Position numbers and translations under genes: made by a program. 32,825 bases of DNA, from the NCBI GenBank assembly GCA_902175065.1, contig CABIIJ010000016.1:1-32825 (forward strand). Reading direction: 5' to 3'. This DNA comes from an uncultured Comamonas sp. Lineage in GTDB: Bacteria; Pseudomonadota; Gammaproteobacteria; Burkholderiales; Burkholderiaceae_C. This document shows positions 1-2,926 of the stretch, piece by piece. Within the stretch, counting starts at the first letter, position 1. The number at the start of each line of letters is the position of its first letter. A model generated the notes under the pieces. The model searched no databases. It was not told where the DNA came from and saw only the letters and a list, made by a program, of their open reading frames with translations.

Positions 1-2926
1 CCCCTACCCCCACCTGCTGGCCCCGCTCGACCTGGGCTTTACCACGCTGAAAAACCGCGTCCTCATGGGTTCCATGCACGTCGGGCTGGAGGAAGCGCCC
101 AACGGCTTCGAGCGCATGGCCGCCTTTTACGCCGAACGCGCACGCGGCGGCGTGGGCCTGATCGTCACCGGCGGCATTGCCCCCAACGCGGCTGGCCGCC
201 CCATGCCCGGCGGCGCCGCCATGACGACACAGGCCGAAGCCGACAAGCACAAGGTCGTCACCCAGGCCGTGCATGAGGCGGGCGGCAAGATCTGCATGCA
301 GATCCTGCACTTTGGCCGTTACGCCTACCACCCCGAACTGGTCGCGCCCAGCAGCCTGAAGGCGCCGATCAGCCCCTTCAGCCCCCAGGCGCTGACGGGC
401 GAGCAGGTGCGCCAGACGATCGAGGACTACGCCAACGCCGCCTTTCTTGCGCAAAGCGCGGGGTATGACGGGGTGGAGATCATGGGGTCGGAGGGCTACC
501 TGATCAACGAATTCATCGCCGCGCAGACCAACCAGCGCGATGACGAATGGGGCGGCAGCTACGCCAACCGCATCCGCTTCCCGCTGGAGATCGTGCGGCG
601 CACGCGCGAACGGGTGGGGACCGACTTCATCGTCATCTTCCGCCTGTCCATGCTCGATCTGGTGGCAGGCGGCTCCACCCAGGAGGAAGTGGTGCAACTG
701 GCCCAGGCGCTGGAAGCGGCGGGCGTGACCATTCTCAACACCGGCATCGGCTGGCACGAGGCCCGCATTCCCACCATCGCCACCAAGGTGCCGCGTGCCG
801 CCTTTGCCTGGGTGACCGAGCAGCTCAAGGGCAAGGTCGGCATCCCCCTGGTCGCCACCAACCGCATCAACACGCCGGAGGTGGCCGAGGCCGTGCTGGC
901 CAACGGCCAGGCCGACATGGTGAGCATGGCCCGCCCCTTCCTGGCCGACCCGCAGTTCGTGAACAAGGCCGCGCAGGGCCGCCCGCAGGACATCAACACC
1001 TGCATCGCCTGCAACCAGGCCTGCCTGGACCACACCTTCGGCGGCAAGATCACCTCCTGCCTGGTGAACCCCCGCGCCTGCCACGAAACCCTCCTCGTGC
1101 CCCAGCCGCTGCCGAAAAAAGAGCGCGTGGCCGTGGTCGGCGCAGGCCCGGCCGGGCTGGCCTTTGCCACCGAGGCAGCGGCACGCGGGCTGGACGTGAC
1201 GCTGTTCGATGCCGCCTGTGCCATCGGCGGCCAGTTCAACGTCGCCAAGCAGATTCCGGGCAAGGAAGAGTTTTACGAAACGCTGCGCTACTTCGGCGAG
1301 CGATTGCAGCAGACGGGTGTGCACGTGCAACTCGGCCAGCGCGTCAGCGCCGAGGATCTGGTGCAGGCCGGTTTCCGGCAGGTGGTGCTGGCCACCGGCA
1401 TCCAGCCGCGCCTGCCGCAGATCGAGGGCGTCACCCACCCCAAGGTGCTGGGCTACCTGGACGTGCTGCGTGACAAAAAGCCCGTGGGCCGGAAGGTGGC
1501 CGTGATCGGCGCGGGCGGCATCGGCTTCGACGTGAGCGAATACCTGCTGCACGAGGGCGAAAGCGCCAGCCTGAACCCCGCCAGGTTCTTTGCCGAATGG
1601 GGCGTGGACACCACCGGCAGCGCACGCGGCGGCGTGCAGGGCGCCCACATCGGCACCGTGCCGCGCCAGGTCTGGCTGCTGCAGCGCAAGAGCAGCAAGG
1701 TCGGCGAGGGCCTGGGCAAGACCACTGGCTGGATTCACCGCACCGGCCTGAAAAACCGGGGCGTCCACATGGTCGCCGGGGTGCAGTACCGCAAGATTGA
1801 CGATGCGGGCCTGCACATCACCGTCGATGGCCGGGAGCAGACCCTGCCGGTGGACAACGTCATCCTCTGCGCCGGGCAAGACCCCCACCGCGAGCTGCAG
1901 GCGGCGCTGGAGGCGCAGGGCGTCACCGTCCACCTGATCGGCGGGGCCGACAAGGCCGCCGAGCTGGACGCCAAACGCGCCATCCGCCAGGGCACCGAAC
2001 TGGGCCTGCGCCTGGGCGGGGCCGTTGAAACTACAAAAACAATAGCTTCTTCCACCCAACCATCGGACATTTCAGATAACAAACCATCTAAAAACATGAA
2101 TACATCAGCGCTACCCACTATGGAAACCGTCAGTATCACTCTGCAGGATCACATCGCCACCGTCACCCTGAACCGCCCGGACAAGGCCAACGCCATGAAC
2201 GCCGCCATGTGGCAGGAAATCCGCCGCGCGTTCGAGTGGGTGGACGCCACCCCCGAGGCCCGCGTGGCCGTGCTGCAGGGCGAGGGCAAATACTTCACCG
2301 CCGGTATCGACCTGCAAATGATGCTGGGCCTGCAATCGCACATTGCCGACGATTGCGAGGGCCGGATGCGCGAGAAGCTGCGCCGCCTGATCCTCGACCT
2401 GCAGGACACCCTGACCAGCTTGGAGCGCTGCCGCAAGCCCGTCCTCGCGGCGATTCACGGCGGCTGCATCGGCGGCGGCATCGACCTCATCACCTGTGCC
2501 GACATGCGCTACGCCAGCAGCGATGCCCGCTTCACCATCAAGGAAATCGACATCGGCATGGTCGCCGACGTGGGCACCCTGCAACGCCTGCCCAAGCTCG
2601 TCGGCCAGGGCATCGCGCGCGAACTGGCCTACACGGGCCGCGTGTTCGACGCCCAGGAGGCACAGCAGATCGGCCTGGTGAACCGCGTGTTCGACACCCG
2701 CGAGCAGCTCTACGCCGGGGTGCGCGAGATTGCCGCCAGCATCGCGGCCAAGTCGCCCCTGTCGATTCGCGGCAGCAAGGAAATGCTCAACTACGCCCGC
2801 GACCACAGCGTGGCCGACAGCCTGAACTACGTCGCCACCTGGAATGCCGCCATGCTGCAAAGCGACGACCTCATGGCCGCCATGATGGCCAGCATGGCCA
2901 AGCAGACGCCCGAATTCAAGGATTGA
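1..2926 (+). CDS. fadH: 2,4-dienoyl-CoA reductase (FadH) fused to a dienoyl-CoA isomerase-like crotonase domain; 5' end outside window
   Basis: The frame is open from base 2 to the TGA at 2924-2926 (974 visible codons). The first visible residues align near residue 3 of E. coli FadH, so only a few codons are missing. Residues 1 to about 674 cover the whole FadH length (672 aa in E. coli): an Old-Yellow-Enzyme-type TIM barrel with the Tyr of [10 protein letters not shown] and the His of GIGWHEAR, the 4Fe-4S cysteines in [10 protein letters not shown] and the following SCLVN, then FAD- and NADPH-binding folds ([17 protein letters not shown]). FadH reduces 2,4-dienoyl-CoA with NADPH during beta-oxidation of unsaturated fatty acids. 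No stop follows: about 32 low-complexity residues lead into a complete crotonase domain (about 707-974). The linker is a copy of a genomic repeat, so the fusion may be recent. Both domains look intact. The alternative is an internal start for the second domain at 2096 or 2120, but neither has a visible ribosome binding site. Confidence 0.93.
2040..2095 (+). repeat. Short AT-rich repeat forming the linker between FadH and the isomerase domain
   Basis: This 56-bp segment matches the gatA-gatB intergenic segment at 18052-18107 without gaps at 37 of 56 positions, counted by eye. Identity is concentrated at the ends (CAATAGCT.CTTCC and ATTTCAG..., AAACCATCT). It is much richer in A and T than the flanking coding DNA and is free of stops in the fadH frame. 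The inner half can pair weakly (AGAT with ATCT, flanked by TTT and AAA). Confidence 0.7.
2120..2926 (+). other. Crotonase domain of the fusion: delta3,5-delta2,4-dienoyl-CoA isomerase (ECH1-like)
   Basis: This 268-residue stretch, starting at an internal Met codon, is a full-length crotonase in the same frame as fadH. It has the oxyanion-hole segments (FTAGIDL and [11 protein letters not shown]) and the stretch [18 protein letters not shown]. From memory, animal ECH1 has a near-identical stretch there, carrying the Glu and Asp that move the double bonds. Ordinary enoyl-CoA hydratases have a different pair of acids, so isomerase is favoured over hydratase. The enzyme would convert 3,5-dienoyl-CoA to 2,4-dienoyl-CoA, which is the substrate of the FadH half. 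If translated on its own it could start at 2096 or 2120, but no Shine-Dalgarno sequence precedes either. Confidence 0.8.

Follow-up and report, generated by a model that had tools for sequence, protein, structure and literature searches.

The window analyzed here, a 32,825-nucleotide stretch from an uncultured Comamonas sp. (assembly GCA_902175065.1, contig CABIIJ010000016.1, positions 1 to 32,825), opens with a gene in which a FadH-type 2,4-dienoyl-coenzyme A (CoA) reductase runs, through a short linker, into a crotonase of the ECH1 type, that is, a delta3,5-delta2,4-dienoyl-CoA isomerase. Positions 2-2926 of the forward strand form one open frame of 974 codons followed by a stop, with zero internal stops or frameshifts, and the Pfam matches along its residues are, in order, Oxidored_FMN (5-329), Pyr_redox_2 (375-643), and ECH_1 (715-974). 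The original prediction, made from the letters of the sequence, was that a single frame joins a full-length FadH to a full-length crotonase in a chain of about 105 kDa. This is confirmed, with a calculated mass of 104.9 kDa for the encoded part. The window starts at contig base 1 in a genome of 3.2 Mb, and the frame is missing solely the extreme N-terminus of FadH, which falls outside the contig; frame residue 2 pairs with residue 2 of Escherichia coli FadH. The fusion junction lies 2 kb inward from the contig start, and the interval proposed for it (2020-2125) agrees with the position of the linker found here (Table 1). Of the two motifs that had been used to classify the crotonase, KEIDIG is located at 2540-2557 and the other, of 10 residues, at 2564-2593.

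Comparison with enzymes of known structure supports the identity of both parts and shows that their catalytic residues are intact. The N-terminal part matches E. coli 2,4-dienoyl-CoA reductase (1ps9) end to end, over residues 2-667 (phmmer expectation value [E] 3.8e-286). Tyr166 (497-499) and His252 (755-757), which we take to be catalytic, and Cys 334, 337, 341, and 353 (codons from 1001, 1010, 1022, and 1058), presumably the cluster ligands, have the same numbering as in E. coli FadH. That enzyme is a stand-alone protein of 671 residues, whereas the chain in the window continues into the isomerase. Across the whole of the C-terminal domain, the top PDB sequence matches are human peroxisomal, human mitochondrial, and rat ECH1 (2vre, 8sk6, and 1dci), at about 255 bits and E about 1e-74, and NCBIfam model NF004794 matches at 420 bits (cut-off 308). 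Asp828, Glu848, and Asp856 (codons from 2483, 2543, and 2567) pair with three acidic residues of rat ECH1 that we take to be Asp176, Glu196, and Asp204 and to have catalytic roles. The proposed ECH1 type of the crotonase is therefore upheld at the level of sequence, with the difference that the mammalian structures are of a free-standing enzyme, whereas in the window ECH1 is the C-terminal part of a reductase. We also modeled the fused chain as a monomer with AlphaFold (alignment of 37 rows; mean predicted local distance difference test score [pLDDT] 74, predicted template modeling score 0.63). Foldseek with this model returned 1ps9 first (template modeling score 0.89 by target) and 1dci, 8sk6, and 2vre as the top crotonases, and residues 674-702 had a pLDDT under 50, as expected for a flexible linker.

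Table 1. Features of the fused gene and the gene that follows it in the window
Feature	Position	Strand	Evidence
FadH-type 2,4-dienoyl-CoA reductase part: flavin mononucleotide (FMN) barrel, 4Fe-4S, and flavin adenine dinucleotide (FAD)/NADPH domains; first residue(s) off contig	2..2011	+	phmmer to 1ps9
Linker, 36 residues, predicted disordered	2012..2119	+	pLDDT, repeat scores
ECH1-type delta3,5-delta2,4-dienoyl-CoA isomerase part	2120..2923, stop codon 2924-2926	+	PDB matches, NF004794
In-frame ATG, possible internal start, without Shine-Dalgarno pairing	2120..2122	+	Duplex energy +1.2 kcal/mol
Convergent downstream Mg-chelatase gene	2927..4423	-	Pfam Mg_chelatase, 308 bits

The original prediction implied that the fusion is singular, which does not stand: we found 14 distinct in-frame FadH-ECH1 fusions, the window included (below, G and L numbers denote genomes and loci). 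This number leaves out G094, in which the crotonase is just 37% identical, and takes in L053, a locus that lacks its first 137 residues because of a contig cut. The search of related genomes that had been suggested for this architecture found a full-length, stop-free fusion within the genus in 3 of 53 genomes (the window, G016, and G009), and 6 of 399 genomes in the family sample were fused (the window, G188, G292, G189, G411, and G150). Six more fused loci (L047, L048, L050, L051, L053, and L054) came from named genomes, where 591 relatives were confirmed and the best 80 of them taken; they belong to metagenome-assembled genomes labeled Rhodoferax, Thauera, Proteobacteria, and uncultured beta proteobacterium. 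At wider ranks, samples of 399 genomes from the order, 369 from the class, and 398 from the phylum contained no fusion beyond the window at cut-offs of 1e-300, 1e-300, and 1e-250, respectively, which are strict enough that very distant fusions would be missed, and they gave no support to a fusion that is widespread in Pseudomonadota. Likewise, a search of 72,556 plasmid records at E 1e-100 returned no place covering 80% of the query. G981, a candidate for a long fused chain, has two separate adjacent genes instead. In G094 (L136, 1501-4705), FadH is fused to a different ECH1-like crotonase, with 37% identity over the domain and an NF004794 score of 269 bits, below the cut-off of 308, followed by about 110 residues without a confident Pfam match; we call this an independent fusion. 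No paper listed by our searches of the open-licence literature names a FadH-ECH1 fusion. Both enzymes are known, and what appears to be new is their recurrent, lineage-restricted fusion and the unusual source of its linker.

Relatives of the window display other arrangements of the same genes. Among 155 loci with a FadH match, a few of which are the same place retrieved more than once, a SnoaL-like match (SnoaL_2-like, 36 bits against a cut-off of 27) lies close by in 76. In 24 of these the domain is fused in frame to FadH (L052, L055, L056, L058-L064, L132-L135, and L137-L146), and in 52 it is a separate downstream gene. The separate gene is also found downstream of fadH in Acidovorax, Brevundimonas, Pseudomonas, and Acinetobacter, so the pairing of fadH with a SnoaL-like gene is old and widespread. 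At six loci (L065, L068, and L147-L150), fadH, a SnoaL-like gene, and a close ech1 stand as three genes; at three (L049, L057, and L067), fadH and ech1 are adjacent and separate, with no SnoaL-like gene; and in Paraburkholderia (L079 and L085), fadH and a SnoaL-like gene are accompanied by a more distant crotonase. The FadH-SnoaL fusions of related Burkholderiales, such as that of Comamonas granuli (L052), share with the window the same FadH and the same gene row, often with a divergent PadR-like neighbor. They differ in that the SnoaL-like domain is on FadH while ech1, where seen, is separate and often behind a repeat. A search of the open-licence literature listed no paper about this fusion. 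None of the FadH-ECH1 fusion loci has a SnoaL-like match, and relocation of the gene elsewhere was rejected, with no match at E 1e-5 in any of nine fused genomes (G094 counted; G016 is just 85% complete), while the same search detected the domain in both FadH-SnoaL genomes used as controls. A plasmid relative (Eleftheria terrae, L247) has, beside fadH, a gene whose annotation reads nuclear transport factor 2 family protein. Upstream of fadH, a divergent gene stands in 21 of the 29 loci examined, L048 and L052 among them; the window contig starts too late to show it. We presume this gene to be PadR-like, in line with its annotation in a plasmid relative, and regard it as a possible regulator of dienoyl-CoA metabolism.

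Most of the fusions fall into two clades in a tree of 58 FadH rows. Clade I (the window, G016, G009, G188, G292, and L047) has a Shimodaira-Hasegawa-like approximate likelihood ratio test (SH-aLRT) value of 100 and is nested among the FadH-SnoaL fusions; clade II (L048, G189, G411, L053, and L054) has a value of 96; and the fusion of G150 (L131) is unplaced, as are L050 and L051. The FadH-ECH1 state needs five changes on this tree, three of which are forced by well-supported branches. The 24 FadH-SnoaL rows, counting L061 and L063, need three changes, as one gain and two losses would; six further stand-alone FadH rows have a separate SnoaL-like neighbor. On the evidence of these sequences, the fusion appears to have arisen more than once among the relatives of the window.

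The linker leads to a dispersed palindromic repeat of about 58 bp. We scored linkers with a general profile of 25 copies from elsewhere, the query for which came from L134. At FadH-SnoaL loci, 12 of 16 gaps before ech1 score at least 10 bits, with L134, the source of the query, among the 12. On the + strand, the fused linkers of G292, G009, G188, and L047 score 34.9, 29.0, 28.5, and 26.9 bits, with 0 of 1,000 shuffles doing as well. One of the six frames of the repeat consensus is open, a forward one, and these four linkers resemble its translation. With a clade II profile in one orientation (13 copies from G189 and G411), the clade II linkers score on the - strand, at 24.3 (G411), 23.5 (G189), 18.3 (L054), 11.3 (L048), and 10.1 bits (L053), with 0 of 1,000 shuffles each. 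Their - strand scores with the general profile are 4.5-13.8 bits, and those of L048 and L053 are low, being reached by 10 and 19 of 1,000 shuffles. No coding control segment reached 8 bits (0 of 595). By sequence, then, the linker in four clade I relatives is the repeat read as protein, and in all five clade II members it is the same repeat reversed. There was no match to the repeat in the linkers of L131, L050, L051, and G094 or, at E 0.01, in G150. The repeat is abundant. With at most 40 candidates scored per genome, matches number 11 to 42 per genome, as lower bounds, in seven of eight fused genomes, and no Rfam family matched the linker or repeat at E 0.1 in six loci. The linker of the window scores 3.9 bits with the general profile (3 of 1,000 shuffles; matching stretch 2031-2051), 3.5 bits with a clade I profile (5 of 1,000), and 5.9 bits with the clade II profile (0 of 1,000). 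It is probably a decayed descendant of the repeat.

Elsewhere in the window, a copy of the repeat at 5544-5577 (17.6 bits, E 7e-5) falls inside frame 4529-5689 (FAD_binding_4), which we take to be glcE-like, near its C-terminus; the window genome thus probably has another repeat that is read as protein. Weak overlapping matches on both strands at 31876-31927 (10.3 and 8.8 bits) fall in the long open frame 30195-32816 on the - strand, which is without a Pfam match at E 1e-8. Comparable elements have been described. The Rickettsia palindromic elements are small dispersed repeats read in frame as protein within genes (PMC10969869). By that description, rather than by sequence, they resemble the repeat reported here, which differs in lying between two former genes, as a fusion linker, and in other bacteria. 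The beta-proteobacterial repeat element BRE of Comamonadaceae and Bordetella is likewise a small dispersed repeat, usually intergenic with some copies inside genes, and it measures about 90 bp, with 69% GC in Bordetella (PMC3110155). Our repeat, at about 58 bp, is shorter and AT-richer, in a comparison of length and GC.

How the fused frame should be read depends on several alternatives. An assembly error, a sequencing error, or a pseudogene is extremely improbable. The gene does sit at a contig start, but the fusion recurs in separate assemblies, including those of the single-contig genomes G188, G292, and G189, and this occurrence rules out a contig-edge or assembly artifact. Because the junction is well inside the contig and other assemblies carry the fusion, both a contig-edge effect and a sequencing error fail as explanations. 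Moreover, both enzyme parts are under strong purifying selection, with nonsynonymous over synonymous rates (dN/dS) between the window and G016 of 0.04/0.38 for FadH and 0.03/0.29 for ECH. It is unlikely, if less remote, that the C-terminal crotonase is a hydratase or an isomerase of another kind. The name of NF004794 is merely "crotonase/enoyl-CoA hydratase family protein," and the next best PDB chain after the ECH1 entries, mycobacterial EchA21 (8soy), is labeled a hydratase and reaches 226 bits versus 255 for ECH1; the remaining matches, among the best 60 of 107, are at or below 134 bits. Yet all three of the ECH1 acidic residues are kept, including the equivalent of Asp204, a third acidic residue that, to our knowledge, ordinary hydratases do not have. 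Furthermore, the three ECH1 entries are the best matches by sequence and also by fold among crotonases, and the different crotonase of G094 has, on inspection by eye, acidic residues at the same three positions.

An argument can also be made for one ancient fusion that was lost many times and replaced by other arrangements, given that parsimony counts do not distinguish gain from loss and that the FadH tree leaves several branch orders open. We consider this improbable. An approximately unbiased test rejects a single grouping of clades I and II for both domains (FadH, p 5e-67; ECH, p 0.0025), albeit with groups named after the tree was seen. In addition, the linker repeat has opposite orientations in the two clades, and clade I sits inside the FadH-SnoaL fusions. 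About equally improbable is that the frame is fused yet the enzymes are mostly made apart, either through an internal translation start at the ATG at 2120 (or at another in-frame ATG at 2096) or through proteolysis of the linker, which is predicted to be disordered and so exposed. Of 24 separate ech genes, 22 possess an ATG whose Shine-Dalgarno pairing reaches -3.0 kcal/mol or better, a cut-off picked after the values were seen; the 24 leave out L058 and L064, where ech is either truncated at the end of the contig or lies 2.3 kb off, and L139, L142, L143, L144, and L146 (no ech within the stretch examined). Such an ATG is found within six codons of the ech start in 0 of 11 members of clades I and II, and 7 of the 11 have no ATG there at all. 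The ATG at 2096 (+1.8 kcal/mol), like that at 2120, is without Shine-Dalgarno pairing.

Some observations, however, weigh against one bifunctional chain joined by a repeat-derived linker. The fusion of G150 retains an ATG with Shine-Dalgarno pairing of -6.6 kcal/mol, and in both G292 and L047 a GTG or TTG codon, with pairing of -3.3 to -5.6 kcal/mol, stands at ECH codons 5-7, just inside the ECH part, all of which favor separate production. The linker is nearly neutral at the amino acid level (window versus G016, dN/dS 0.36/0.48). When five linker pairs were simulated under neutrality, 2.8 stops were expected, and none arose in 5.4% of runs (P 0.054), which makes selection on the linker reading frame suggestive only. 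The ECH tree joins the window and G016 to unfused relatives (SH-aLRT 82-87), in conflict with the FadH tree; this could reflect recombination, a separate fusion event, or noise in an alignment of 270 columns. Finally, the window's own linker matches the repeat weakly (E 1.3 in the scan of the window). It keeps just a trace, and its repeat origin therefore rests on the relatives.

ECH1 is a hexamer that converts 3,5-dienoyl-CoA to 2,4-dienoyl-CoA. We think it quite likely that the fused gene encodes a bifunctional enzyme of unsaturated fatty acid beta-oxidation, in one chain, that arose from the row fadH / SnoaL-like / ech1. The C-terminal part would convert 3,5-dienoyl-CoA to 2,4-dienoyl-CoA, which the N-terminal part would reduce to 2-enoyl-CoA with NADPH, using FAD, 4Fe-4S, and FMN. 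In this way, the chain would hold the bypass, through the reductase, for 3,5-dienoyl-CoA, a dead-end product of oleate beta-oxidation. A review on E. coli gives a context for such a bypass (PMC9329746): FadH, a monomer, carries out the NADPH-dependent reduction of 2,4-dienoyl-CoA to 2-enoyl-CoA, which rejoins beta-oxidation, and, according to the same review, there is no dienoyl-CoA isomerase in E. coli; 3,5-dienoyl-CoA is unusable there and is hydrolyzed instead, and about 10% of oleate is lost as 3,5-tetradecadienoyl-CoA.

As for the history of the gene, we infer that the ancestral state was the row of three genes and that FadH would first have fused to the SnoaL-like domain. In the lineage of the window, the SnoaL-like part and its stop would then have been lost, leaving FadH to read through the intercistronic repeat into ech1 and turning the repeat into a flexible linker. 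Tethering would set a one-to-one ratio of the two activities and, should the ECH1 part still assemble as a hexamer, would bring six reductases together. Channeling of 2,4-dienoyl-CoA between the parts is a conjecture. More speculatively, the repeat may be a recurrent gene-fusion adaptor in these Burkholderiales, a possibility to which we give a minor share of our confidence. One forward frame of its consensus is stop-free, and its reverse strand would have been opened in clade II, such that losing one stop could join operon neighbors by way of a ready-made flexible linker. Under this proposal, FadH would have swapped the SnoaL-like domain for ECH1 more than once, and the hexameric core with its six reductases would hand over 2,4-dienoyl-CoA directly.

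Two other features of the window complete the description. The Mg-chelatase gene that follows the fusion, presumably yifB/comM-like, also adjoins it in G016; because this gene is convergent, no gene of the same unit follows the fusion. Farther along, 20861-24004 on the - strand encodes a CHASE-PAS-GGDEF-EAL protein of 1,047 residues.

A chain that would carry both bypass steps offers a natural test of whether there is a benefit from tethering the isomerase to the reductase, and it may serve metabolic engineering as a ready-made component. The locus also displays, among relatives alive today, the likely stages of a gene fusion, from separate genes through a different fusion to FadH-ECH1. More generally, it provides a case, in two orientations, of a noncoding dispersed repeat that would have been turned into a protein linker.

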